Assembly (NCBI GenBank): GCA_945787295.1 | Contig: CALZHQ010000032.1 | Coordinates: forward strand, 1-27,312 | DNA: 27,312 nt | Direction: 5' to 3' | Source of the DNA: an uncultured Desulfuromonadales bacterium | GTDB lineage: Bacteria > Desulfobacterota > Desulfuromonadia > Desulfuromonadales > Geopsychrobacteraceae | In this document: in pieces, positions 1-25,197 of the stretch | How the letters are laid out: each line of letters starts with the position of its first letter | How positions within the stretch are numbered: the stretch's first letter is position 1 | Program-made: the position numbers and the translations under genes | The notes under the pieces: generated by a model | What the model was told of the DNA's origin: nothing | The model's input: the letters and a program-made list of their open reading frames with translations, nothing else | The model's database searches: none

Positions 1-2
1 CC

Positions 3-3000
3 ACCGGCGCCTTGATCAGCATTGCGGCAGGCCAAACGGCGCCTGGCGACTGCGCGACCTGTCACACCGGGACCTGGGAAGCCGAGCATTCGACCATGCC
101 AAACCATACCGGTATCGTCACCGTGACAGGCACCACCTGCGGGACCTGCCACGACGACACTCTGGTCAGCGTGGCAGCCGATACTCATAACGCCTGCATT
201 AGTTGCCACGACGCCATAACTGGCGCCCTAATCAGCATTGCGATAGGCCAAACGGCACCTGGTAATTGCGCGACCTGCCATACCGGCACCTGGGAGGCCG
301 AGCATCCGGTTGCCTCTGATCATACTGGTATTGTCACCGTCGGCAGCACCAGCTGCGCCAGCTGTCATGACGACACCCTGGTCAGTGCGGCAGTCGATAC
401 CCATAATGCCTGCGCCAGCTGTCATAACGCCGCAGACGGTGCTCTGATCAGTATTGCCACAGCTCAGGCTGCCCCTGGTGACTGCGAAACCTGTCATACG
501 ACCGGGTTTGACACCATCCACACCGCCCATGCGCATACTGTGGTACAAGGTCCTGGTGATCTCTCCCACATTGCCCCGGGTCAGCTGTGCAGCAACTGTC
601 ACGTGGTATCAACCTGGGCCGAGATCGAAGGCACTGAGCACAATGTCCCGACCAACGGGGCCGGCTCTTGTGCCACCTGTCACAACAGCCCACGACAAGA
701 AGTCATCGACGCCATCAATCTTGGCGCAAACCCGACCAACTGTCTGCCGTGTCACTCGAACAAGGACATGACCCCCCACGGTAGTGCCAACCACATGACC
801 CTCGGTTATGTCACTGGCGGCGCAACTCCGTGCCTGACCTGTCATGATCCGGGTGGCAGTACGAATGAGGCGGTCACCATCATTCATAATAGTAACTGTG
901 CACTTTGCCATACCACCATACCGGCGCTGCAGCCTGGCGTCCCAGTCGGTGGCGGTGACTGTTTGACCTGTCACACCAGCACCTGGGATGTGACCCACAC
1001 CACCAACACCCCGAGTCACAACACGCTGATTCAGGTGGCCGCGACCGGCTGTGCCAGCTGTCACAGCGATCCTCCGCCGCTCACCGATGCTGGCGATCCG
1101 AAGGTGCACAATGCCTGCGCCACCTGTCACGATGTAAATGGCGGACTGGTCAGCAGTGCGGTTGGTCAGGACTTCACCACTGGCGGCGACTGCGCCACCT
1201 GCCATACCGGCGGCTTTGACGTCACCCATGCAGCACATGCACATACAGTTGCCTTGAATGCCGCTGACATTTCTGCTGGTCTTTCCTGCGGTTACTGCCA
1301 TGTTGTGGCGAACTGGACTGAAATTGATGGGACCGAGCATAATGTCGCCACCAACGGGGCCGGTTCCTGCTCAACCTGTCATAACAGCCCGAGAGTAGAA
1401 GTTCTGACCGCCATAGCAACGGGCGCCAACCCGACCGATTGTCTGGATTGTCATTCGGATAAAACAACGCTTCACGGCACGAGCGACCATACAGCGCTCG
1501 GCTATGTGACGACCACGGCATCATGCGTGACCTGTCACGATCCAGGTGTGGTCCCGAATGCGACGGTCAGCATCACGCATTTGAATAATTGCGCCCTCTG
1601 CCATACAACTCCTCCGTTCCTGCAGCCTGGTGTTCCGGGTCAAGGCGAATGTGTCTTCTGCCATAGCAGCACCTGGGAAGCCACCCATACGACAAATACC
1701 CCGGACCACAGCAACCTGGTTCAGGTGGCAACGACCGACTGCGCGAACTGTCACGACAACACCCTGGCCAGCGCCGCAGCCGATACCCACAACAGCTGCT
1801 CCAGCTGTCACAATGCCGACGGTACCCTCAGAAGCCTGGCGATCGGCAAGACCTTCGTTGCTGGGGGCGACTGTGCGACCTGTCATACCGGCACCTGGGA
1901 AGTAACTCACCCGACAGCACCAGACCATACAGCCCTGGTGGCCGTTGGTGTTAGCAGCTGTGCGAACTGTCACAGCAATCCACCGCCGTTGACCGATGCG
2001 GGCGACCCAAAGGTACACAATGCCTGCGTTAGCTGTCATAACGCCACCAGCGGCGCTCTGATCAGCAGTGCCGTCGGCAAGACCTTTGCGGTGGGTGGCG
2101 ACTGCGCCACCTGTCATACGACCGGTTTTGACACCATCCATACCGCCCATACTCATACTGTTGCGGAAGGCCCCGGTGATCTCTCCCACAACGCGCCGGG
2201 ACAGCCGTGTAGCAACTGTCACGTGGTTTCGACCTGGGCAGAAATCGAGGGAACCGAGCATAATGTACCGACCAACGGCGCCGGCTCCTGTGCCACCTGT
2301 CACAACAGCCCGCGGCAGGAAGTCATAGACGCCATCGCTCTTGGCGCTGATCCGACCAACTGTCTGAATTGCCATTCGAACAAGGATATGACTCCGCACG
2401 GCAGTGCCGACCACATGACCCTCGGTCACGTCACCGGCGGCGCAACTCCGTGCCTGAGCTGTCACGATCCTGGTGGCAGCACGAATGAGACGGTCACCAT
2501 CATTCACAACAGTGATTGTGTCCTTTGTCACACCAGTATACCTGCTCTGCAGCCTGGTTTGCCGGCTGGTGGCGGTGACTGCCTGGCATGTCACACAGAC
2601 ACCTGGACTGTCACCCACACCACCAATCCACCGAGCCATAACACCCTGGTCACGGTCACCGGAACCACCTGCGGCAGCTGTCACAGCGATCCGCCGCCAC
2701 TTGCCGATGCCGGCGATCCGACCAACCATAACGCCTGCGGCAGTTGTCATGATGTGGATGGCGGTTTGATCAGCAGTGCGGTCGGTAAAGACTTCACCAC
2801 TGGTGGTAACTGTGCAACCTGTCACACCGGCACTTGGGAAGCAAACCACACCCTGTCGCCAGCACCGGACCATACTGCTCTGGTGAACATAACCGGTACA
2901 ACCTGTGGACCTTGTCACACTGATCCGCCGCCGCTGGTCGATGCGGGTGATGCGACCAATCATAATGCCTGCGCCAGCTGTCATAACGCCGCTGACGGGG

Positions 3001-6000
3001 CTCTGTTGAGCAGCGCGATTGGCAAGACTTTCGGTGTGGGTGGTAACTGTGCAACCTGTCACTCCAACACCTGGGACGCTCTGCATAGCACCAATGTTGT
3101 GAGCCACAACAGCTTAGTTACTGTCACCGGCACTGGTACCACCGGCACCGGCTGTGCGAACTGTCACAGCGATCCTCCGCCGCTCACCGATGCTGGCGAT
3201 CCGAAGGTTCACAATGCCTGCGGCAGCTGTCACGATGCGAACGGTGCACTGATCAGCACTGCTATCGGCAAGGATTTCACTACTGGTGGTGACTGCGCAC
3301 TCTGTCACAACACAGGTTTCGATACGATCCATACTGCCCATGCGCACACGGTTGCCGAAGGAGCCGGCGATCTCTCCTACGATGCACCGGGTCAGCTGTG
3401 CAGCAACTGTCACGTGGTCTCGACCTGGGCCGAGATCGATGGCACCGAACACAACGTTCCGACCAATGGTGCCGGCTCCTGTGCCACCTGTCATAACAGC
3501 CCGCGGCAAGAAGTTATTGACGCCATCGCTCTGGGTGCAGATCCGACTAATTGCTTGAATTGCCACTCGAACAAGAACCTGACCGTTCACGGTAGCGCCG
3601 ATCATGTCGCACTCGGCTACGTTCTCGGCGGTGCCACGCCATGTCTGAACTGTCACGATACCGGTGCTGCGGTGAATGGCACCGTGGCCACCACCCATTT
3701 GAGTAACTGTACTCTGTGTCACACCACTGCGCCGGCGTTGCAGCCAGGCATCCCGGCCGGTGGCGGTGTGTGTACCGTTTGTCACACCAACACCTGGGAC
3801 GTTCTGCACATCACCAACACCCCAAGCCACAACAACCTGGTGCAGGTGGCTGCTACTAGCTGCGGACTCTGTCACAGCGATCCGCCACCACTGACCGATG
3901 CCGGCGATCCGAAGGTTCATAATACCTGTTCCAGCTGTCACGACGTGGACGGTGGCCGCATTAGCAGTGCTTCCGGTAAGGACTTCACGACTGGCGGTGA
4001 CTGTACGACCTGCCATCTGAGCAGTTGGGAAGTGACTCATACCACCAATACTCCAGACCACACTCCGTTGGTATCGGTAGTCGGTACCGGCACGACCGGA
4101 ACCGGCTGCGGTAATTGTCACAGCGATCCGCCGCCATTGACCGATGCCGGTGACGTGAAGGTGCACAATGCCTGCGCCAGCTGTCACGATGTGAACGGTG
4201 CGCGAATCAGCTTGGCAGTGGCCAAAACCTTCGCCGTCGGTGGCGATTGCGTGACCTGTCATGCCAGCGGTTTTGATGGTTCCCACAGCGCCCATACCCA
4301 TACCGTTCAACTCGGTGCCGGCGATCTCTCGCATAATGCGCCGGGTCAGCCGTGCAGCAACTGTCACGTGGTCTCGACCTGGGCCGAGATTGAAGGGACT
4401 GAGCACAATGTGCCGACCAACGGGGCCGGTTCCTGTGCGACCTGTCACAACAGCCCGCGTCAGGAAGTTATCGATGCGATCACCCTGGGTGCTGATCCGA
4501 CCAACTGTCTGGATTGCCATTCAAATAAGAACCTGACCGTCCATGGCAGCGCCGACCATATGACCCTCGGCTATGTCACGGTTGGAGCAACGCCATGCCT
4601 GAGTTGTCACGATCCGGGCGGCACTACGAACGAGACAGTGACGCTGATCCACAACAGCAACTGTGCCCTGTGCCATACCACGATCCCGGCGCTGCAGCCG
4701 GGTCTGCCGGCCGGCGGTGGTGACTGTCTGGCCTGCCATACCGATACCTGGGAAGTAACCCATACCACCAATACGCCGGACCACACCCCGCTGGTCACCG
4801 TGGTCGGCACCGGTAGTACCGGAACCGGTTGTGCGAACTGTCACAGCGATCCGCCGCCATTGACCGATGCCGGCGATGTCAAGGTGCATAACGCTTGCGC
4901 CAGCTGTCATAATGTCGATGGTGGACTGATCAGCAGTGCAGTTGGGCAGGACTTTACTACCGGCGGCGACTGCGCGACCTGTCACAGCAGCGGCTTTGAC
5001 ACCACGCACAGCACCCATGCGCATACCGTCCAACTCGGTGCCGGCGATCTCTCGCATAATGCGCCGGGTCAGCTGTGCAGCAACTGTCACGTGGTTTCGA
5101 CCTGGGCCGAGATTGAAGGGACTGAACACAACGTTCCGACCAACGGTGCCGGCTCCTGTGCCACCTGTCACAACAGCCCGCGTCAGGAAGTTATCGATGC
5201 GATCACCCTGGGTGCCGATCCGACCAACTGTCTGGATTGCCATTCAAATAAGAACCTGACCGTTCACGGCTCCGCCGACCACATGACCCTCGGTTATGTC
5301 ACGGTCGGGGCGACGCCATGCCTGAGCTGTCACGATCCGGGCGGCACTACGAACGAGACAGTGACGCTGATCCACAACAGCAACTGTGCCCTGTGCCACA
5401 CCACCATTCCTGCCCTGCAGCCGGGTCTGCCGGCCGGTGGCGGTGACTGCCTGGCGTGTCACACCGATACCTGGGATGTCACCCATACAACCAACACGCC
5501 GAGCCATAACACGCTGGTCACGGTGACCGGCACCACCTGCGGCAGCTGTCATAACGACCCGCCGCCGTTGACCAACCCGGGCGACCCGCGGGTGCATAGT
5601 GCCTGCTCTAGCTGTCACGATGCGAACGGCGGTCTGATCAGCAGCGCGGTCGGGACCGATTTCACCACCGGTGGCAACTGTGCGACCTGTCACACCACGA
5701 GCTGGGAAACGCTGCATAGTACCAACGTGCCGAGCCATAATGCCCTGGTGACCATCAGCGGCACCGGCACGACCGGAACCGGCTGTGGTAACTGTCACAG
5801 CGATCCGCCGCCACTCACCGATGCCGGTGATGTGAAGGTGCATAATGCGTGCGGCAGCTGTCACGATGTGAACGGCGCTCCGATCAGCAGCGCGATCGGT
5901 AAGACCTTCGTAGCCGGTGGCGACTGTGCGACCTGCCATAACAGCGGTTTTGACACCACTCACAACGCCCATACGCATACGGTCCAACTCGGCGCGGGCG

Positions 6001-9000
6001 ATCTCTCGCACAACGCACCGGGTCAGCCGTGCAGCGACTGTCATGTGGTCTCGACCTGGGCGGAGATTAATGGCACCGAACACAATGTGCCGACTAACGG
6101 TGCCGGCTCCTGTGCCACCTGTCACAACAGCCCGCGGCAGGAAGTCATCGACGCCATTACTCTGGGTGCCGATCCGACCAACTGTCTGGATTGCCACTCG
6201 AACAAGAACCTGACCGTTCACGGCAGTGCCGATCACATGACCCTCGGTTATGTCACGGCCGGAGCGACGCCGTGCCTGAGCTGTCATGATCCGGGTGGCA
6301 GCACCAATGAGACGGTTACGGTCATTCATAACAGTAATTGTGCCCTGTGCCACACCACCATTCCTGCCCTGCAGCCGGGTCTGCCGGCCGGAGGCGGTGA
6401 CTGTCTGGCCTGTCATGCCGATACTTGGGATGTCCTGCATACCACCAACACCCCGAGCCACAATACGCTGGTGACCGTGACCGGTACCCAGTGCGGCACC
6501 TGTCACAGCGACCCGCCGCCGCTCACCGATGCCGGCGATCCAAAGGTTCACAATACCTGCGCCAGCTGTCACGATGTGGATGGTGGGCTGATCAGCAGTG
6601 CCGTTGGTAAGGATTTCACCACCGGTGGTAACTGTGCGACCTGTCACACCGGCAGTTGGGAAGCGACCCATACCACCAACATTCCGAGCCACAACACTTT
6701 GGTCCAAGTGGCTGCGACCAGCTGTGCCAGCTGTCACAGCGATCCGCCGCCGTTGACAGATGCCGGCGATCCAACCAACCACAATGCCTGTGGTAGTTGT
6801 CACGATGTGAACGGTGCTCGGATCAGCAGTGCCTCTGGTCAGACCTTCGCTGCTGGTGGTGACTGTGCGACCTGTCACACCGGAACCTGGGAAGCCACCC
6901 ACACCCTGTCTCCTGCACCGGACCATACCGCCCTGGTAACTGTGACCGGCTCCACCTGTGGTCCTTGCCATAGTGATCCGCCGCCGCTCACCGATGCTGG
7001 TGATGCGACGAACCACAATGCCTGCGCCAGCTGTCATGACGCCACCACTGGTGCTCTGCTCAGCAGCGCGCTCGGCAAGACCTTCGCCGGCGGTGGTAAC
7101 TGTGCCACCTGTCACACCAGCAGCTGGGATGCTCTGCATACCACCAACACTCCGAGCCACAACGCTCTGGTTCAGGTGGGCGTAAGCAGCTGTGCCAGCT
7201 GTCACAGCGATCCGCCGCCATTGACTGATGCCGGCGATGCGAAGGTCCACAATGCCTGCGGTAGCTGTCACGATGCGAACGGTGTTCTGATCAGTTCTGC
7301 TGTGGGTACAGACTTCACCACCGGTGGTGATTGTGCCACCTGTCACACCAGCGGCTTTGACACCTTGCACTCAACCCATAGCCATACTGTCAGTTTGGGC
7401 GCCGGTGACCTGTCTGCCGGTAGTTCCTGTGGCAGTTGTCACGTGGTTGCCAACTGGACCGAGATCGATGGGACCGAGCATAATGTTGCCACCAACGGCG
7501 CCGGTTCCTGCGCGACTTGCCACAACAGCCCGCGTCAGGAAGTCATCGACGCCATCACCCTAGGGGCAAACCCGACCAACTGTCTGGATTGCCATTCGGC
7601 TAAGACTGCTGCTCACGGTAGTGTCGATCACGTGGCCCTCGGCTACGTCACCGGCGGTGCAACACCATGTCTGAGCTGTCACGATACCGGTGCAGCCGTC
7701 AACGGCACCGTTGAAACAACTCACCTGGACAACTGTACGCTCTGTCATACCACCGCACCGGCCCTGCAGCCTGGCGTGCCGGTCGGTGGCGGTGACTGTG
7801 TGACCTGTCACACCGACACTTGGGAAGTGACCCACACCACCAACACCCCGAGTCACAACCCGCTGGTGCAGGTGGCCGCGACCAGTTGCGGCAATTGTCA
7901 CACTGATCCGCCGCCGTTGACCGATGCAGGTGATTCGGCCAACCACAATACCTGTGGCAGCTGTCATGATGCGAACGGTGGTTTGATCAGCTCCGCGGTG
8001 GGTAAAGACTTCACCACCGGTGGCGACTGCGCGACCTGCCACACTGGGACCTGGGAGGCCGAGCACCCGTCGATGCCGAACCATACCGGTCTAGTTACCG
8101 TGACCGGCACCACTTGCGGGTCCTGCCACGACGACACCCTGGTCAGCGCAGCACCTGAGACCCATGACGCCTGCGCGAGTTGTCACAACCCAGTAGATGG
8201 TGCTCTGATCAGCATTGCAGCTGGCCAGACAGGAGCTGGCAACTGCGTCACCTGTCACACCGGCACTTGGGAAGCGATGCACACGACCATGCCGAACCAT
8301 ACCGGTCTTGTTACTGTGGCTGGCACGACCTGCGGGTCCTGTCACGACGATACCCTGGTCAGCGCTGCACCGACCACGCACAACGCCTGTGTAAGTTGTC
8401 ACGATACAGTCACTGGCGCATTGATCAGTATTGCAATAGGTCAAGCCGCTCCGGGTAATTGTGAAAGCTGTCACACCGACGCCTGGGAAACGATGCATGC
8501 AAACTCTTGTGGCTCTTGCCACGGTAACGGCACTGACCAACACTGGCCGCAACTGAGCAGCAGCGACCCGGCCGATTATCCGAACCGGGCCGGTTCCCAT
8601 GCCGAGCATGTCCTCTCCATTGCCGATGCGATCAACGGCGGCGGTTTCGGTAGTGGTACCACCGCTGAGAAGAACGCCAGCTGTATCTACTGCCATCCGG
8701 GCGGCACCCATACCAACGATGATTCTACGGCGCCAGCTGACCTCTATCAGGATGGTCAGGCCGGCAACAGCGATGCCGATGACAAGTACATCTACGTGCT
8801 TGACGACGCCGCCGTTCCGGGACCGGGCGGGACGAAGAACTTCCCGATCGATACCGATGGCAGCGCCAAAGCATACAACCACCTCGATCCGACCAACCCG
8901 ATCGAGAATTACGGCACCTGCAGCAACATCGATTGTCACAGTAGCGCCGCTTACACTCCGCATTGGTACGGCGATGTTGTGCCTCCGGGAACCATCACCG

Positions 9001-12000
9001 ATCTGGCCGCCAGCACCACCGATCCTGATGCGACTGAGCAGGTGCCGGGCAGTGTCGCCCTGACCTGGACGGCTCCGGGTGATGACGGTTTGTTACCCAC
9101 CAGGGCCTACCAGTACGAAGTACGCTACAGTACCTCGCCGATCAACGAAGGCAACTTCGCTTCGGCAACCCGCACCGGTGCGCCTCCCAAGGTGGCATTC
9201 AGAGGGATTACCGAAAAGATGGTGATAACCGGCCTGACTCCGGGTCAAAGCTACTACTTCGGTGTCCGGACCTACGATGAAACCTACGACCCGGCGCTGG
9301 CCAATAACGTCTCGCTGGTCGCGGCAACCGGCAGTTCTGTTGCCGCCCATGCAGATGATGTCAAACCGGAGTTCTTCGGGATGGATCGGGTCGATCTGAC
9401 CAACGAGTACTCGTACGACGGCAACCTGGTGACCACCGCGGTCGATCTGCACTGGACTGCCGGACAGGATTACAGCCTGCCGCTGACCTACCGGATCTGG
9501 TGGAGTGAGTATTCGCTGAAGACCCACCTGGCGCTGGGCGGCAGCCTGCCGACCAGCGATACCGGCTACACCGAAACCGGTGGCGTGCCGACCGAAGGTG
9601 GCAGCGATTACTTTATCTATACAACCACCACCCAAGCTGACGAGCACCGGCTCCAGGGCTTGACGGCAGGTGTGCTGTATAACCTGCTGGTCCGCGCGGT
9701 TGACAACTCGCCGGCAAGCAATACCGACACCAACACGGTTGTAAAGATGGTCCTGCCGAAGACCATGGCTGAGTTCAACTCAGATACAAAGATGTATTTG
9801 ACTAACAGCTCAAATGCTCTTGTTGTCCAGGCCGATCCGATCAATCCTGTCTGGCCAGGGGCTGGAACCAGTACCTTGACTGTTGGTGGTTCCCTGACCT
9901 GGGTGGCTTCATCAACCTACAGCTCTGATACCAATGTACAGGGAATCGGTTTCGATATCCTCGCGGCGAATCAAGACAAAGATACTGCGACTCTTGAGTA
10001 TCAACTCGGCTATGCCACCAGTGGCGGTAGTTGGGTTCAGTCGCTAGGCAATGAACCGGTCAAGTCGAGAGCCTTGGGCCGTAAGTCGAGTCGTGTCCAG
10101 AAACTGGGTATGTTCGATTTTGCCGATATCGTTCCTGCTGGATATAAGCTGGCCGTTCGTTTGTCGGCACCGGGGACCAACCCTGGAGATATTAATCTGT
10201 CATTCGGAACGAACAACAACAAGGGCCAGCTGCTGATCAACGAGCAGGCCTATAACCATGCACCGGATGCTCCGAGTGGCATCAATATCACCGAACAGCT
10301 AGTCGGCGGCTACCTGGATATCGACTGGACCGCATCGGGCGACAATGATCCGGGTCTCGGTCAGACCGTGAAATATGATGTCTTCGGTTCGGCCGATAAT
10401 GGCGGCAGCTATCCTTACGTCATCGCGACCGACGTCACCGATCCGGTGGCCGGAGTCACCTGGGATACGGTTCAGGATGGCTTGGCTGGCAGCAGCTACA
10501 ACATCAAGGTTAAGGTTGTGGCCCATGACGGCAACCTGTACGAGACCGGCCTTGCTGCTCCGAACGATCTGGATGCTGGCGTGGAGGGTATTTCCGGGAC
10601 TTATCTGCTGGATAACAGCGTCGACACCGAGCCGCCAGCTGCGCCGACGCTTGTAACATATAAAACGCGCCCGGTTCAGGGGACCGTGTACCTCGAATGG
10701 TTAGCGGTCGGCGATGACGGCGACAAGGGCTCAAGAGCCGGCCAGTACGATATCCGCTTCAGCAAGGTTTCAGCCGGTCCATTCGATTGGGCCACGGCAA
10801 CCCAAACAGATGGCGAGCCGACTCCTGGGTTCAAAGGAAGCATGGAAGAGTTCGATCTGATGCGGCTGGATCCGGAGAACGATTACTATATCGCCATGAA
10901 GGCCGCCGACGAGGCCGGCAACTGGTCGCCGCAGTCGAACGTTGTCACGGCAGTCGGTGGACGCGAGTTCTGCGGGACCTGCCATTCGACGCCGCCTGAG
11001 CTCGACCCGAATATCGGTACCCATAGGGCGCATGGCAACACCCTGGATGATTGCGTCAAGTGCCACGGTGAAGAGGTCTGGACCTACACGGTTCATCACT
11101 ACGACGGTCAGCTGAAGCTCGGCTGGGGTTACGATGCCTCAGGCACCCGTCTGCCGTCGGTTGAGGCTGATATCGTTGGTGACAACGTCAGCTACAGCCA
11201 GTTCAACGGCACCGAGATGGTGAAGATCTATGAAGACACCGACGGTGGTGGCGGCTTTAACGCCACCGGCACTTACGACGTGCCTCAGGGCTACAACGGC
11301 GACAGTGGTAGCTGCATGAACTTCGTCGATCCCACCGGTGGTACCAGCGGGGTCTACGCCAGTGGCTGTCACGGTCCCTTCGTACCCAAGTGGGCTGATG
11401 GTGCCGACGGCCCGCAGCTCGCACCCCAGTGTGCTGACTGCCATGGTGACAAGACGCCTGCGCGCGATCTTGACCCCTACGGACGGGTCTGGGACGACAA
11501 TGTCGCCGGCTTGCCAACGCCTGAAGTCCAGGCGTCTCCGCCGCTCGATAATCACGGCTATAACACCGGCCGCTTTGTCGGCGCCCACGAGAAGCACCTG
11601 AATATCTCGATGCGCTTCGCCAAAGGCGATCCCTGTCGACTCTGTCATCTGAATACCTGGGAGAGCGGTATGCACGCCAATACCAGCCAGGATGTTGTCT
11701 TCGACGTGGCCGCCGGTGTTGATGAAAACACCCCGGCTGTTTGGACGCCGAATGCCAGCGGCCCGGACACCCCGGGAACCTGTGGCAGCCTGAACGCCTA
11801 CAGCTGCCACGATACCGGGGCGACCTGGGACACTGGTACGCCAGCCAAGTGTAACGAATGTCACGGGTTCGGCGGGCTTGCCTACACGGTTGGGGCCGGT
11901 TCCAGCGAGATCGGCCATGTCATGGACGCTGGTCAGGTTCAGGATTGTACCCACTGCCATGTTGCTGGCCATCCGCAGTCGCCGGATGGCGTCACCCCGG

Positions 12001-13400
12001 GTGACCCGGCGACCCTGTTGATTCCGAATAACCCGGCGATCGGCATCAGTTACCTCGATGGTGGTATCCATCTGCGCAAAGTGATCGGTGGCCGCAGCCA
12101 GATGAACGATGGTTCGACGATCGATACCCTGGCCGAGGTCTGCTGGGGCTGCCACGAGGACAACGGCATCTCCGAGTGGGGCACTAATAACCAGGCGGCA
12201 ACCGGCAACAGTGCTTACGACTACGGCAGCCTCGATCAGACCAACTGGGTCGGCGCGGTTTGGAACAGTGCGAACTTCGGTTACAAGACCGGTTACATCC
12301 AGTCGACCCACACCACAGATCCGACCGGGACGTCGCAGGTGACCTGGGATGCTGCTAATGGCCGTTACAACGAAACCACCGATACGGTAGATAAGATCCG
12401 CTGCTCCAACTGCCATGATGTGCATAACCGCAACCTGGCACCAGGCGACACCATGAGCGGAGCACCTTTCCTGCGCGGCACCTGGATGGGCAACCCATAT
12501 GAAGAAGATGGTGCGCCGTTCAGCCAGGATTACACCTCGCAGAACGCCTACGGGGCAGTCCCCCGTGGCGGAACAGCTTACAACGAGTTGGGTGGCTACT
12601 ACATCGATCAGAACAACGTCGTTCCGGGTACCGGAGCAACGACGCAGACTCCAGCAACCTATCCGACTTCCGGCTGGACGTTGGAAAGCTCGGCTGGCCT
12701 CTGTACCCTCTGCCATGGAGACGATGTCGACAACCTCGACCAGCTCAGCGGTGAGAATCTCTGGGTGGGAACCAACGGGCACAGCAACGCAGTTGTTGGC
12801 GGTTCGATGAGCAATGCGGCGAATATCTTCGACTTCACCCACGGCCGGCCGACGCCAGTTCAGGTTGGAGACCGGAGCAACCGCGGAGTCGGAGAATTTA
12901 CCAGCCAGGTGCCGAGTATGGGCTACATCTCACAGCAAGAGGTTGAGGGGAATGCTGAAGGTCACGGCTACCGTGGTCACGCCAGCAGCGGTTATACTGG
13001 TGAGTATATTCCTTCAACCGACCCGGCCAGCAGAGCCTATGGTTTCACCGCTTATGATTGGGGAGCTTCGGTCGATGCCGGGACCACGGACGGTCTTTAT
13101 CACCAATTCAGCTGCTCCAAGTGCCACAACCCGCATGCGTCGCGCTTGCCGAAGCTGATGATCACCAACTGTCTCGATATCAGGCATAACACCTGGGATG
13201 ATGCAAAGTCGAGCGATCAGACACGTTACACAGCTGCGGCACTGAGCGCTGTCGACTCGGGCAAGAAGGCCGCTTACTACGCCTCGGCTCAGAACTGTCA
13301 CCGTTATGATGACAGCCGCTCGACGCAGCAGCTCAAAGGTGGCTGGAACAAGGTGACGCCGTGGGAGAATGAGAACATCAATGATACGGCGCATCCGTAG
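3..13400 (+). CDS. Giant multiheme c-type cytochrome with FN3-like domains (5' partial)
   Basis: The frame is open to the window edge, so the true start and any signal peptide lie upstream; the TTG at 12 is internal to a repeat and is not a start. At least 4465 residues are encoded. Manual counting gives 121 CxxCH motifs: 108 in a modular array (nt 51-8459), three just after it, and ten in a C-terminal segment. There is also one CX4CH (8919), one CX7CH (11781) and one CX17CH (11313). Four FN3-like domains and one further beta-rich domain (nt 8976-10965) carry no heme motif. No membrane helix is visible. Covalent heme attachment happens outside the cytoplasmic membrane, so a periplasmic, outer-membrane or extracellular electron-transfer or electron-storage role is inferred from the family. 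The stop TAG at 13398 is followed by a strong hairpin. No porin or cytochrome-maturation gene is present in the window. Confidence 0.95.
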   Translation, partial: TGALISIAAGQTAPGDCATCHTGTWEAEHSTMPNHTGIVTVTGTTCGTCHDDTLVSVAADTHNACISCHDAITGALISIAIGQTAPGNCATCHTGTWEAEHPVASDHTGIVTVGSTSCASCHDDTLVSAAVDTHNACASCHNAADGALISIATAQAAPGDCETCHTTGFDTIHTAHAHTVVQGPGDLSHIAPGQLCSNCHVVSTWAEIEGTEHNVPTNGAGSCATCHNSPRQEVIDAINLGANPTNCLPCHSNKDMTPHGSANHMTLGYVTGGATPCLTCHDPGGSTNEAVTIIHNSNCALCHTTIPALQPGVPVGGGDCLTCHTSTWDVTHTTNTPSHNTLIQVAATGCASCHSDPPPLTDAGDPKVHNACATCHDVNGGLVSSAVGQDFTTGGDCATCHTGGFDVTHAAHAHTVALNAADISAGLSCGYCHVVANWTEIDGTEHNVATNGAGSCSTCHNSPRVEVLTAIATGANPTDCLDCHSDKTTLHGTSDHTALGYVTTTASCVTCHDPGVVPNATVSITHLNNCALCHTTPPFLQPGVPGQGECVFCHSSTWEATHTTNTPDHSNLVQVATTDCANCHDNTLASAAADTHNSCSSCHNADGTLRSLAIGKTFVAGGDCATCHTGTWEVTHPTAPDHTALVAVGVSSCANCHSNPPPLTDAGDPKVHNACVSCHNATSGALISSAVGKTFAVGGDCATCHTTGFDTIHTAHTHTVAEGPGDLSHNAPGQPCSNCHVVSTWAEIEGTEHNVPTNGAGSCATCHNSPRQEVIDAIALGADPTNCLNCHSNKDMTPHGSADHMTLGHVTGGATPCLSCHDPGGSTNETVTIIHNSDCVLCHTSIPALQPGLPAGGGDCLACHTDTWTVTHTTNPPSHNTLVTVTGTTCGSCHSDPPPLADAGDPTNHNACGSCHDVDGGLISSAVGKDFTTGGNCATCHTGTWEANHTLSPAPDHTALVNITGTTCGPCHTDPPPLVDAGDATNHNACASCHNAADGALLSSAIGKTFGVGGNCATCHSNTWDALHSTNVVSHNSLVTVTGTGTTGTGCANCHSDPPPLTDAGDPKVHNACGSCHDANGALISTAIGKDFTTGGDCALCHNTGFDTIHTAHAHTVAEGAGDLSYDAPGQLCSNCHVVSTWAEIDGTEHNVPTNGAGSCATCHNSPRQEVIDAIALGADPTNCLNCHSNKNLTVHGSADHVALGYVLGGATPCLNCHDTGAAVNGTVATTHLSNCTLCHTTAPALQPGIPAGGGVCTVCHTNTWDVLHITNTPSHNNLVQVAATSCGLCHSDPPPLTDAGDPKVHNTCSSCHDVDGGRISSASGKDFTTGGDCTTCHLSSWEVTHTTNTPDHTPLVSVVGTGTTGTGCGNCHSDPPPLTDAGDVKVHNACASCHDVNGARISLAVAKTFAVGGDCVTCHASGFDGSHSAHTHTVQLGAGDLSHNAPGQPCSNCHVVSTWAEIEGTEHNVPTNGAGSCATCHNSPRQEVIDAITLGADPTNCLDCHSNKNLTVHGSADHMTLGYVTVGATPCLSCHDPGGTTNETVTLIHNSNCALCHTTIPALQPGLPAGGGDCLACHTDTWEVTHTTNTPDHTPLVTVVGTGSTGTGCANCHSDPPPLTDAGDVKVHNACASCHNVDGGLISSAVGQDFTTGGDCATCHSSGFDTTHSTHAHTVQLGAGDLSHNAPGQLCSNCHVVSTWAEIEGTEHNVPTNGAGSCATCHNSPRQEVIDAITLGADPTNCLDCHSNKNLTVHGSADHMTLGYVTVGATPCLSCHDPGGTTNETVTLIHNSNCALCHTTIPALQPGLPAGGGDCLACHTDTWDVTHTTNTPSHNTLVTVTGTTCGSCHNDPPPLTNPGDPRVHSACSSCHDANGGLISSAVGTDFTTGGNCATCHTTSWETLHSTNVPSHNALVTISGTGTTGTGCGNCHSDPPPLTDAGDVKVHNACGSCHDVNGAPISSAIGKTFVAGGDCATCHNSGFDTTHNAHTHTVQLGAGDLSHNAPGQPCSDCHVVSTWAEINGTEHNVPTNGAGSCATCHNSPRQEVIDAITLGADPTNCLDCHSNKNLTVHGSADHMTLGYVTAGATPCLSCHDPGGSTNETVTVIHNSNCALCHTTIPALQPGLPAGGGDCLACHADTWDVLHTTNTPSHNTLVTVTGTQCGTCHSDPPPLTDAGDPKVHNTCASCHDVDGGLISSAVGKDFTTGGNCATCHTGSWEATHTTNIPSHNTLVQVAATSCASCHSDPPPLTDAGDPTNHNACGSCHDVNGARISSASGQTFAAGGDCATCHTGTWEATHTLSPAPDHTALVTVTGSTCGPCHSDPPPLTDAGDATNHNACASCHDATTGALLSSALGKTFAGGGNCATCHTSSWDALHTTNTPSHNALVQVGVSSCASCHSDPPPLTDAGDAKVHNACGSCHDANGVLISSAVGTDFTTGGDCATCHTSGFDTLHSTHSHTVSLGAGDLSAGSSCGSCHVVANWTEIDGTEHNVATNGAGSCATCHNSPRQEVIDAITLGANPTNCLDCHSAKTAAHGSVDHVALGYVTGGATPCLSCHDTGAAVNGTVETTHLDNCTLCHTTAPALQPGVPVGGGDCVTCHTDTWEVTHTTNTPSHNPLVQVAATSCGNCHTDPPPLTDAGDSANHNTCGSCHDANGGLISSAVGKDFTTGGDCATCHTGTWEAEHPSMPNHTGLVTVTGTTCGSCHDDTLVSAAPETHDACASCHNPVDGALISIAAGQTGAGNCVTCHTGTWEAMHTTMPNHTGLVTVAGTTCGSCHDDTLVSAAPTTHNACVSCHDTVTGALISIAIGQAAPGNCESCHTDAWETMHANSCGSCHGNGTDQHWPQLSSSDPADYPNRAGSHAEHVLSIADAINGGGFGSGTTAEKNASCIYCHPGGTHTNDDSTAPADLYQDGQAGNSDADDKYIYVLDDAAVPGPGGTKNFPIDTDGSAKAYNHLDPTNPIENYGTCSNIDCHSSAAYTPHWYGDVVPPGTITDLAASTTDPDATEQVPGSVALTWTAPGDDGLLPTRAYQYEVRYSTSPINEGNFASATRTGAPPKVAFRGITEKMVITGLTPGQSYYFGVRTYDETYDPALANNVSLVAATGSSVAAHADDVKPEFFGMDRVDLTNEYSYDGNLVTTAVDLHWTAGQDYSLPLTYRIWWSEYSLKTHLALGGSLPTSDTGYTETGGVPTEGGSDYFIYTTTTQADEHRLQGLTAGVLYNLLVRAVDNSPASNTDTNTVVKMVLPKTMAEFNSDTKMYLTNSSNALVVQADPINPVWPGAGTSTLTVGGSLTWVASSTYSSDTNVQGIGFDILAANQDKDTATLEYQLGYATSGGSWVQSLGNEPVKSRALGRKSSRVQKLGMFDFADIVPAGYKLAVRLSAPGTNPGDINLSFGTNNNKGQLLINEQAYNHAPDAPSGINITEQLVGGYLDIDWTASGDNDPGLGQTVKYDVFGSADNGGSYPYVIATDVTDPVAGVTWDTVQDGLAGSSYNIKVKVVAHDGNLYETGLAAPNDLDAGVEGISGTYLLDNSVDTEPPAAPTLVTYKTRPVQGTVYLEWLAVGDDGDKGSRAGQYDIRFSKVSAGPFDWATATQTDGEPTPGFKGSMEEFDLMRLDPENDYYIAMKAADEAGNWSPQSNVVTAVGGREFCGTCHSTPPELDPNIGTHRAHGNTLDDCVKCHGEEVWTYTVHHYDGQLKLGWGYDASGTRLPSVEADIVGDNVSYSQFNGTEMVKIYEDTDGGGGFNATGTYDVPQGYNGDSGSCMNFVDPTGGTSGVYASGCHGPFVPKWADGADGPQLAPQCADCHGDKTPARDLDPYGRVWDDNVAGLPTPEVQASPPLDNHGYNTGRFVGAHEKHLNISMRFAKGDPCRLCHLNTWESGMHANTSQDVVFDVAAGVDENTPAVWTPNASGPDTPGTCGSLNAYSCHDTGATWDTGTPAKCNECHGFGGLAYTVGAGSSEIGHVMDAGQVQDCTHCHVAGHPQSPDGVTPGDPATLLIPNNPAIGISYLDGGIHLRKVIGGRSQMNDGSTIDTLAEVCWGCHEDNGISEWGTNNQAATGNSAYDYGSLDQTNWVGAVWNSANFGYKTGYIQSTHTTDPTGTSQVTWDAANGRYNETTDTVDKIRCSNCHDVHNRNLAPGDTMSGAPFLRGTWMGNPYEEDGAPFSQDYTSQNAYGAVPRGGTAYNELGGYYIDQNNVVPGTGATTQTPATYPTSGWTLESSAGLCTLCHGDDVDNLDQLSGENLWVGTNGHSNAVVGGSMSNAANIFDFTHGRPTPVQVGDRSNRGVGEFTSQVPSMGYISQQEVEGNAEGHGYRGHASSGYTGEYIPSTDPASRAYGFTAYDWGASVDAGTTDGLYHQFSCSKCHNPHASRLPKLMITNCLDIRHNTWDDAKSSDQTRYTAAALSAVDSGKKAAYYASAQNCHRYDDSRSTQQLKGGWNKVTPWENENINDTAHP
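2103..3770 (+). repeat. Higher-order block, copy 1 (L-SSS-L')
   Basis: This block holds hemes 28-48 and resembles 5925-7796 unit by unit. Both have an S unit with the LSPAPDHTALV insert, directly followed by an S unit reading WDALH, and both end in an L unit whose fifth and sixth hemes read DTGAAVNGTV and NCTLCHTTAPALQPG. Copy 2 has one extra S unit. A segmental duplication followed by gain or loss of a three-heme unit is inferred. Confidence 0.7.
4248..5447 (+). repeat. Near-identical adjacent L units (L5 and L6)
   Basis: The L units at 4248-4724 and 4971-5447, separated by one S unit, encode identical protein from CSNCHVVST through to the following LACHTDTW, about 125 residues. The DNA differs at many positions, nearly all synonymous third bases. 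This pair is the closest in the array. Confidence 0.8.
5925..7796 (+). repeat. Higher-order block, copy 2 (L-SSSS-L')
   Basis: This block holds hemes 76-99 and is the counterpart of 2103-3770. It has four S units where copy 1 has three. Its last L unit (7332-7796) has an N-terminal half like the second L unit at 1191 (VVANWTEIDGTEHNVATNG) and a C-terminal half like the L unit at 3294, so it looks like a recombinant. Confidence 0.7.
8460..8975 (+). other. Array-terminating heme domain with CxxxxCH motif
   Basis: This segment of the giant cytochrome ends the regular array. It has a last W-type motif (CESCH, 8460), then CGSCH (8508), CIYCH (8682) and CSNIDCH (8919) followed by TPHW. The CxxxxCH motif with preceding CxxCH motifs resembles the Geobacter CxxxxCH...CxxCH domain family (TIGR01904). 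Whether the CX4CH site takes heme cannot be told from sequence. Confidence 0.6.
8976..10965 (+). other. Heme-free beta-domain block: four FN3-like domains plus one other
   Basis: Within the giant cytochrome, four segments read as fibronectin type III-like domains: about 8976-9345, 9358-9765, 10258-10617 and 10621-10962. Typical signs are a proline-rich entry (PPGTITDL, EPPAAPTL), a strand with V.L.W.A.GDDG and a late strand with GL.PG.SYYFGVR or L.PENDYYIAMKA. The second is divergent. Between the second and third, about 9766-10257 encodes a different beta-rich segment with a PAGYKLAVRL motif that I cannot assign. The block has no CxxCH. FN3 domains often act as spacers or adhesion modules; that role here is inference. 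Confidence 0.7.
10966..13400 (+). other. C-terminal ten-heme segment of the giant cytochrome
   Basis: CxxCH motifs start at 10971, 11052, 11430, 11634, 11850, 11946, 12141, 12402, 12702 and 13113. Unlike the array these are irregularly spaced, with long intervening segments rich in Gly, Asn, Tyr and Asp. A CX17CH (11313-11372) and a CX7CH (11781-11810) are additional candidate sites. The last motif, CSKCHNPHASRLPKLM, and the tail with NCLDIRH and NCHRYD look like the C termini of larger FN3-containing Geobacter-type cytochromes (from memory, not searched). Confidence 0.7.
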
Positions 13401-13489
13401 GTGAAGATGATGCAAAAGGACGAGAACATCCGGCTTTCGAACCTGTAAATCTATTTCTGCTTGCAGGGCCGTTTGACTCGGTAAATGTT

Positions 13490-13538
13490 AACCAAAACAG
13501 GCTGGCCGTTCGTATGGACGGACCAGCCTGTTTTGGTT
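13490..13538 (+). terminator. Strong hairpin, probable terminator of the giant cytochrome gene
   Basis: AACCAAAACAGGCTGG (13490-13505) is perfectly complementary to CCAGCCTGTTTTGGTT (13523-13538), and the loop can pair further (CCGT with ACGG). It starts 89 bp after the cytochrome stop. The T-rich tract lies in the 3' arm rather than after it, so it may work in both directions. Confidence 0.75.
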
Positions 13539-13880
13539 TGAACAAGCTGTTTTGGCATGCGACGGTTAGGGTTAAGTGAACTTATGAGGTGCCGGTAAGA
13601 TTGCCTCGAATCTTTCTTGTTAGTGGGACGGAGAAGTGTAAGCTTTTCCGACAAGCAGACTGTTGAATGAAAAATTTTCAGCGCACCAAAGCCCCGAATG
13701 AATATGCCCATTTCCTATGGGCAATGATCGGTGTATTGTTGTTTCGATAGATAATGGCCGGTTAAAATCGATAGAAAATTTAATAGTCCAAAAAAGCATA
13801 AACTTTATAAGAGTCGTATCTTCAATGATTAGGCAGGGTGTGTCGTTGTGAGCAAACCTTCAAACTTAATAAAAATTCAA

Positions 13881-13911
13881 TCCCAGTACCGACCGCCAAA
13901 TCCTACTGGGA
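13881..13911 (+). repeat. Inverted repeat upstream of lipB
   Basis: TCCCAGTA (13881-13888) pairs perfectly with TACTGGGA (13904-13911) across a 15-base loop. Its right arm shares GGGA with the next hairpin, so both cannot form at once. Confidence 0.55.
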
Positions 13912-24694: not shown

Positions 24695-24970
24695 TTAGTA
24701 TGATTTTTTAAGATCTCGATAAAAATTTTCATGCGAACCTAACATGAGGAGAGTGAGCGTTTTTTCGTTGAACTGATATGCGATAAGAAAGAGTTGGTTA
24801 GTTATTTTGCATTTATAAACGTAAACACCCTGAAGATCTCCTCTTTTCTGCACCCCAATTTCAGGATCAGTCAAGATCTTATGAATTTCCCTATCAAGCT
24901 CTGCAATTTGTTTTTTATGCAACTTCTTTTTGGCCTTGGCAAAGGCGGAGGTCTGAAAAACCTTTCGCAT
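24695..24970 (-). CDS. RelE/ParE-superfamily toxin
   Basis: The 91-residue basic product begins MRKVFQTSAFAKAKKKLHKKQIAELDREIHKIL and continues with GVQKRGDLQGVYVYKCKITNQLFLIAYQF and TLTLLMLGSHENFYRDLKKSY, the helix-helix-beta-sheet pattern of RelE/ParE toxins. RelE-type members cut mRNA in the ribosome and ParE-type members poison gyrase; this sequence alone does not decide, though the KCKITNQLFLIAYQF strand and GSHENFY tail resemble RelE-like annotations. The ATG shares one base with the antitoxin stop (TAATG), a coupling typical of such operons. It is the second gene of the pair. Confidence 0.85.
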   Translation of the reverse strand: MRKVFQTSAFAKAKKKLHKKQIAELDREIHKILTDPEIGVQKRGDLQGVYVYKCKITNQLFLIAYQFNEKTLTLLMLGSHENFYRDLKKSY

Positions 24971-25197
24971 TATTGGCCCTCGCCAAACACATACTCTTCG
25001 ACCATCCCAGCCTCAACTTCTGCCTGAGCTAGAAGAATCTCGCGGATAACAGAAAACGGAAGATCGGGATTCTCCTCGGCTGCTCGGCCAATAGACGCCC
25101 AATATTCAACTTGTCCTGCTAAAGAGCGATGTTCAACTTTTGAAACAGTCTTTGCACTCTTTATTAACTCATCATTGATTTTCACAGCTTGCGGCAT
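24970..25197 (-). CDS. ParD-like antitoxin
   Basis: The 75-residue product begins MPQAVKINDELIKSAKTVSKVEHRSLAGQVEYWASIGRAAEENPDLPFS, which matches the ParD-like antitoxin family (PF11903 type): a ribbon-helix-helix DNA-binding N terminus, the HRSLAGQVEYWA helix and the ENPDLP turn. The acidic C-terminal part (AQAEVEAGMVEEYVFGEGQ) would neutralise the toxin. AAGGAGG just before the ATG at 25197 is a strong ribosome-binding site, fitting the need for more antitoxin than toxin. It is followed without a gap by the toxin gene. Confidence 0.88.
   Translation of the reverse strand: MPQAVKINDELIKSAKTVSKVEHRSLAGQVEYWASIGRAAEENPDLPFSVIREILLAQAEVEAGMVEEYVFGEGQ

Follow-up and report, generated by a model that had tools for sequence, protein, structure and literature searches.

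We analysed a 27,312-nucleotide stretch of an uncultured Desulfuromonadales bacterium (hereafter the window; contig CALZHQ010000032.1), in which a single plus-strand frame, already open at the first bases, encodes a protein crowded with CxxCH heme motifs (Table 1). The original prediction had claimed at least 4465 residues and 121 canonical CxxCH motifs by manual count for the visible part, with the 5' end outside the window and the total thus a lower bound; our pattern search returned exactly 121 motifs along with 250 Cys and 282 His, and the length and the missing 5' end were borne out as well. Shuffling the residues of 3..13400 left a mean of 0.92 CxxCH (maximum 5 in 200 shuffles), and the other two plus-strand frames over the same bases contain 133 and 205 stops. 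Beyond CxxCH the protein carries four CXnCH pairs: CX4CH at residue 2973, CX17CH at 3771 and CX7CH at 3927, which we could locate as the three atypical sites reported before, and a CX41CH pair at 4390/4432 that had gone unlisted. The 121 CxxCH and four CXnCH motifs make 125 pairs and therefore use all 250 Cys (250 = 2 x 125). With 125 hemes the visible part has a predicted mass of ~536 kDa, at about 37 residues per motif over the whole visible chain.

Table 1. Features of the giant cytochrome gene and its downstream flank (window coordinates; residues numbered from base 3)
Feature	Position	Strand	Remarks
Giant multiheme cytochrome gene, 5' end beyond window	3..13400	+	4465 residues, 121 CxxCH, stop 13400
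Residues 1-13, resembling tail of three-motif S module	3..41	+	compared with S modules
Dense array, 28 modules in order SSHTHSTHTTTHTTHTHTTHTTTTHTSS, residues 14-2816	42..8450	+	108 CxxCH, 216 Cys
H module 1 (six motifs)	474..950	+	module parse
H module 2	1182..1640	+	module parse
H module 3	2094..2570	+	module parse
H module 4	3285..3761	+	closest to lone H module of G480 protein in L108, 71% identity
H module 5	4239..4715	+	module parse
H module 6	4962..5438	+	module parse
H module 7	5916..6392	+	module parse
H module 8	7323..7787	+	module parse
Junction, residues 2817-2990	8451..8972	+	CxxCH at 2820, 2836, 2894; CX4CH at 2973
~660 Cys-free residues (2990-3650)	8970..10952	+	single fn3 stretch by Pfam (3009-3093)
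C-terminal heme region, residues 3655-4465	10965..13397	+	10 CxxCH plus CX17CH, CX7CH, CX41CH; each invariant in 8/8 aligned sequences
Strong hairpin 90 bp past stop	13490..13538	+	fold of 13475-13560: -42.4 kcal/mol, z -6.75
Last 23 nt of tRNA-Val 3' end, beside lipB	13876..13898	+	21/23 identical to G476

The first 13 residues resemble the tail of an S module, so that at least one further module is likely to lie upstream, and judging from the sequence the array likely extends beyond the visible 5' end. At the other end of the gene, the hairpin past the stop is likely the transcript end; a scan for T-tract terminators found none on the plus strand, which is that of the cytochrome. On the minus strand of bases 1-13400, no more than 24 stops interrupt one of the antisense frames over 13.4 kb, leaving open frames of up to 708 aa, probably a by-product of repeated codons.

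The dense array (2803 residues) splits without remainder into 28 modules of three kinds, 15 T and 5 S with three motifs each and 8 H with six, at 26 residues per motif. The spacing of motifs follows a code of 30-35/22/25 in T, 29/19/24 in S and 35/27/24/30/22/21 in H, with small variations, and neighbouring modules are spaced by about 20 residues, measured from last to first motif. Exactly three non-motif His occur in all 20 T and S modules, and 7-9 accompany the six motifs in each of the eight H modules; one non-motif His per motif would fit the requirement of bis-His hemes. Met is present in none of the 15 T modules, in 3/5 S and in 5/8 H modules, and every module retains enough His. Pfam Cytochrome_C7 was matched in 15 stretches of the giant protein, and TIGR03508 (DmsE/MtrA-type decaheme) reached 260.8 bits against a cut-off of 192.2 as a whole-protein score over nine repeat stretches. 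A T-H-T-T segment found no chain among solved structures (PDB) at E 0.01, and two AlphaFold2 models gave mean pLDDT values of 37 and 33, so that the models support no fold or heme path.

Copies of each module share a mean protein identity of 0.78 (H), 0.69 (T) and 0.68 (S), with median ω values of 0.11 (27/28 pairs usable), 0.18 (101/105) and 0.19 (9/10), respectively. The median dS between modules exceeds 1. The repeats are old and maintained by purifying selection on the protein.

From the junction onwards the protein is similar to a family of giant cytochromes that we refer to as the scaffold family. Pfam detects an MtrC/F-like domain at residues 3948-4141, and the 14 heme sites of the C-terminal part, like all four CXnCH pairs, are invariant in 8/8 aligned sequences, the window included. 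The fourth pair (CXnCH, n ~34 to 71) is present in 61 of 66 scaffold relatives and may be a heme site, with a disulfide as the alternative; a working heme motif with a 14-residue loop is described for OmcZ (PMC9473688). When the scaffold profile was compared with the PDB, seven chains were retrieved, six of them matching in the fn3 part and one, a flavocytochrome, at E 0.007.

The two halves of the protein have different relatives. The C-terminal part is common to 66 of the 196 proteins found, which carry 15 to 71 CxxCH (up to 86 when CX3-4CH is counted) and in most of which fn3 appears among the listed domains, as in P0001 and P0007. By contrast, the profile built from the window's H modules matches seven of the 196 (P0189-P0195), none of which has the scaffold. 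H modules and scaffold thus coincide in 0/196 proteins, and likewise in none of 656 locus frames, where the H profile scores at least 20 bits in 18 and the C-terminal part at least 150 bits in 63. Scaffold giants with at least 40 motifs are looser (48-69 residues per motif versus 26 in the window's array) and lack H modules. At four loci a separate gene upstream of the scaffold gene shows 43 (L015), 37 (L024), 33 (L028) or 15 (L016) visible motifs at about 38-40 residues per motif, with no H module, whereas in the window array and scaffold form one frame.

Searched with the profile of the window's own copies, which may miss distant arrays, H modules are strong in three of 136 genomes of the order (G480, G476 and G423; 185-232 bits) and weak in 15, with 12 weak matches in a broader draw of 395 genomes and one in the 21 genomes behind the examined loci (each up to 30 bits). 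A 700-residue array piece used as genome query matched 8/30 genomes, all weakly, and the plasmid collection searched held no match. The scaffold protein P0073 was matched somewhere in 49 of the 136 genomes, so that a common scaffold contrasts with a rare array.

In the three sister genomes we found five array frames (L108-L112) that share the window's spacing code but have one H module and 10-35 CxxCH each, with no scaffold match in any of them, compared to eight H modules plus scaffold in the window. The largest, from G480 (L108), encodes a protein of 1247 residues that has 35 CxxCH in modules ordered H T S S S T T, together with MopE-type repeats and a signal-like N-terminus; the remaining four hold 10-17 CxxCH, and three are cut by contig ends. 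H identity between the window and these genomes reaches 71%. The best tree groups the eight window H copies together, which suggests that H modules multiplied within the window's own lineage, yet support is poor (38/81; 40% of 200 bootstrap trees) and this growth is favoured rather than shown. The same two kinships would also result if the fusion were ancient and the gene had been split or lost in other lineages. G476 also retains, at a contig edge, a shrunken piece of the C-terminal end (L117:8577-9389) with the tail as in the window and most heme motifs lost, either an eroded copy or poor assembly; as it is the only such piece found there, the protein may be dispensable in G476.

The visible neighbours of the cytochrome are mostly housekeeping genes by Pfam, with no electron-transfer gene among them and no outer-membrane barrel partner gene on the downstream side of the window. 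HtpG shares 86% identity with its G480 counterpart and 77-78% with those of G025, G026 and G027 (genomes reached through two loci filed as Geopsychrobacter and one as Deltaproteobacteria), which places the host probably in this part of Desulfuromonadales. Synteny with G480 extends over eleven genes from an HDOD gene to htpG (57-88% identity) and with G476 over ten genes from lipB to a rubrerythrin-like gene (64-90%); the HDOD gene of G476 matches that of the window in pieces at 50-53%, and synteny there is therefore imperfect. A tblastn search with the cytochrome found no match in the syntenic stretches of either genome. Instead, lipB of G476 is accompanied by a tRNA-Val (cac), a homologue of the G480 UDP-glucose dehydrogenase and an HD gene, and G480 has a tRNA-Val and the UDP-glucose dehydrogenase next to the HDOD gene. 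The window contains no intact tRNA. Between cytochrome and lipB, however, sits the 23-nt end of a tRNA-Val listed in Table 1, and the flank beyond it is also similar to G476; with up to three mismatches, this tRNA-Val end was absent from 200 gap shuffles and from the rest of the window.

A partial tRNA 3' end is a mark of DNA entry at the 3' end of a tRNA gene. Since two syntenic relatives have the intact tRNA without the cytochrome, the giant gene probably lies in an insert of which one end is the tRNA-Val scar. No integrase was seen within the window, and a rearrangement that broke tRNA-Val is the alternative. When lipB was used as synteny probe in the first ten genomes, 3/10 matched, and the two of these loci that were inspected show no cytochrome beside lipB. 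Cytochromes are also reported in a predicted prophage of D. soudanensis (PMC4914508), so that mobile cytochromes have a precedent.

Several minor observations concern the same regions. Array genes of G480 lie close after tRNA genes, namely Asp-Val-Asp before the cluster that holds the 35-motif gene (L108:2744-3109) and tRNA Arg 460 bp before a 17-motif gene (L109:7233-7767); second copies of the ends of these tRNAs were absent from the stretches examined beside them, and L110, L111 and L112 contain no tRNA. G480 carries a reverse transcriptase gene (PF00078; L119:8518-9510) separated by a few kilobases from its UDP-glucose dehydrogenase gene at the tRNA-Val site. ParE-like toxin and ParD-like antitoxin genes occupy 24698-25197 on the minus strand of the window, whose flanking genes lie within about 160 bp of each other in the corresponding block of G480, which would reflect either a small insertion in the window or a loss in G480.

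Our preferred reading, to which we assign a probability of roughly 0.55, is that the frame is the 3' part of a gene for a giant c-type cytochrome that combines a 108-motif array with the fn3 and heme-bearing C-terminal regions of another giant family and serves as a surface-tethered electron relay or store. The protein would be exported through a signal peptide, as the N-termini of its relatives suggest: 46 of the 66 scaffold relatives pass a simple screen for N-terminal hydrophobicity, and the N-termini of P0190 and the L108 protein look signal-like by eye. Heme would then be attached at each motif and the array hemes ligated by two His each, so that the array could form an unbroken row of hemes that passes on and stores electrons, while the fn3 and C-terminal parts would dock the chain to the cell surface or to partner cytochromes. 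OmcS rises 48 Å per six hemes (PMC6584659); with this spacing (8 Å per heme) a single covalent chain carrying 108 hemes would be about 86 nm long. That the chain could serve as a wire or as a sizeable electron store, as the original prediction envisaged, is plausible, in that all 20 three-motif modules offer one extra His per motif. If its hemes run on without a gap, the array would rank with the longest covalent paths for electrons, and its clean code (three motifs with three further His, or six motifs) makes it testable module by module. The gene itself likely came to its present position within an insert at the tRNA-Val 3' end.

More tentatively, the gene could be a mobile wire built of interchangeable modules, in which H went from one copy to eight within the lineage and the array was welded to the surface anchor of a different giant family before the gene entered the chromosome at tRNA-Val. 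We regard this fuller history as possible but doubtful. Were it true, bacteria would lengthen and trade single-chain heme wires through module duplication and island transfer. The mosaic build, the short arrays of the sister genomes and the tRNA scar make the origin of giant cytochromes traceable in sequence.

A different function, which we hold to be unlikely, is that of a periplasmic electron store, a scaled-up GSU1996 whose triheme domains buffer electrons within the envelope when acceptors run out. The dodecaheme GSU1996, described as a periplasmic capacitor (PMC10138318), strings repeated triheme domains along a single chain, the same plan of three-motif modules as in the window, and the 15 Cytochrome_C7 stretches agree with such a kinship; yet it has 12 hemes with a His-Met heme in each domain, whereas the T modules are devoid of Met. 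A chain of ~86 nm would moreover hardly fit the periplasm, the fn3 region suggests contacts at the surface, and a 69-motif cytochrome of D. soudanensis, which may or may not be kin to the window's protein, is predicted to be extracellular (PMC4914508). Membership in the GSU1996 type as such was ruled out by the Met test (0/15 T modules).

Less probable still is that the protein is a docking hub and not a wire: an OmcE-type filament system would use the C-terminal part as its functional cytochrome at the surface, while the array merely extends or spaces it. The C-terminal part does stand alone, both in 15-motif proteins and in ~700-residue, 11-motif proteins that adjoin NHL propeller genes (the preceding gene has NHL repeats in 3/3 scanned: L011, L012 and L019), and OmcE-like genes adjoin giants in four loci. 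The same loci supply possible partners for the surface chain of our preferred reading as well. In G480 (L108) the cluster runs PPIase, NHL propeller, OmcE homologue, 8-motif cytochrome and 35-motif array, and the OmcE homologue matches PDB entry 7tfs (E 1.6e-12; molecule titled 'Cytochrome c'), which we take to be the OmcE structure. An OmcE-like gene also lies directly before the giant in L003 (L003:3-2191; E 1.7e-27) and in a D. acetexigens-type genome (L096:2602-6456; E 9.9e-18), in both cases after an FG-GAP/PEGA propeller gene, and in G017 (L125:11024-14715) directly before a 3606-residue scaffold giant and after a 956-residue gene. Such a gene is found upstream of 3/34 giants with 1.5 kb of upstream sequence visible, a count in which some overlapping loci figure twice and to which L125 is additional; among array loci with visible upstream sequence (L108, L109 and L110) only L108 has one, and the six-motif neighbour in L109 had no PDB match. 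A PPIase/propeller operon with 16- and 26-motif cytochromes is described for sulfate-reducing partners of ANME archaea (PMC5539420). Against the hub stands the purifying selection on the array motifs and their matching His, which a spacer would not need.

That the chain does not stay intact and is cut after export into many small cytochromes is very improbable: each T or S module carries its own full set of Cys and His, and such modules occur in smaller proteins, but only about 20 residues lie between the last motif of a module and the first of the next. An assembly artefact with collapsed or expanded repeats is scarcely credible, for although the window starts within the array like a contig broken at a repeat, bases 1-9000 contain a single pair of exact DNA repeats of at least 60 bp, the longest being 71 bp, which makes short-read collapse or misassembly unlikely, the first 200 bases have no exact match elsewhere above 22 bp, the frame and the Cys and His counts are intact throughout, and the identical spacing code recurs in other genomes. 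Misassembly had been named beforehand as what would refute the prediction, and the sequence gives it no support. Recent tandem amplification or collapse was likewise ruled out by the median dS above 1 and the 71-bp limit on exact repeats.

The comparison with OmcE, OmcS and OmcZ, offered earlier as a measure of the motif count, is correct in that these have far fewer hemes per chain, but it is the wrong set for judging novelty, as giant cytochromes reach 86, 112, 161 and 228 motifs. The filaments resemble the window's protein in their inferred role of extracellular multiheme conduction and differ in being made of many small subunits; the array segment matches no solved chain. In the literature, Desulfuromonas acetexigens expresses an 86-motif cytochrome during growth on electrodes and iron oxide (PMC12133095), a Paludibaculum MAG is credited with 112 motifs (PMC11495043), the 69-motif cytochrome of D. 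soudanensis is encoded in a long-read genome (PMC4914508) and MtrA has 25.1 residues per motif (PMC7399161). Among public proteins, P0189 (7370 residues, 228 CxxCH) and P0190 (5776 residues, 161 CxxCH; its N-terminus is hydrophobic and its contig 139 kb long) are predictions whose counts lie far above the printed ones found (maximum 112). A record motif count was ruled out for the window, given public proteins with up to 228 CxxCH and a printed 112. P0189 and P0190 share H-like and T-like modules with the window but are arrays only, without its fn3/C-terminal scaffold, and their best H match scores 68 bits versus 319 within the window.

Neither an H/T array fused to an fn3 scaffold, nor the window's module code, nor a giant cytochrome at a tRNA scar was found in open-access full-text literature or in protein searches, one of which covered the best 120 of 202 matches. 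What is unusual is the combination of array and scaffold in one protein; larger motif counts are present in databases.

The 86-motif cytochrome of D. acetexigens, from the same bacterial order, resembles the window's protein in its many motifs per chain. Genome G518 has a 100% match to P0073, which is named Trichloromonas acetexigens, presumably the same species as Desulfuromonas acetexigens, and contains an 87-CxxCH frame that is likely the published cytochrome. Its motif spacing mostly alternates between about 23-30 and 13-16, in pairs and not triplets, and unlike the window's protein it matches neither H module nor scaffold; the scaffold genes found in G518 are separate. Another G518 frame (L095:6125-11113) packs 77 CxxCH into 1663 residues, about 22 per motif, and is denser than the window's array.
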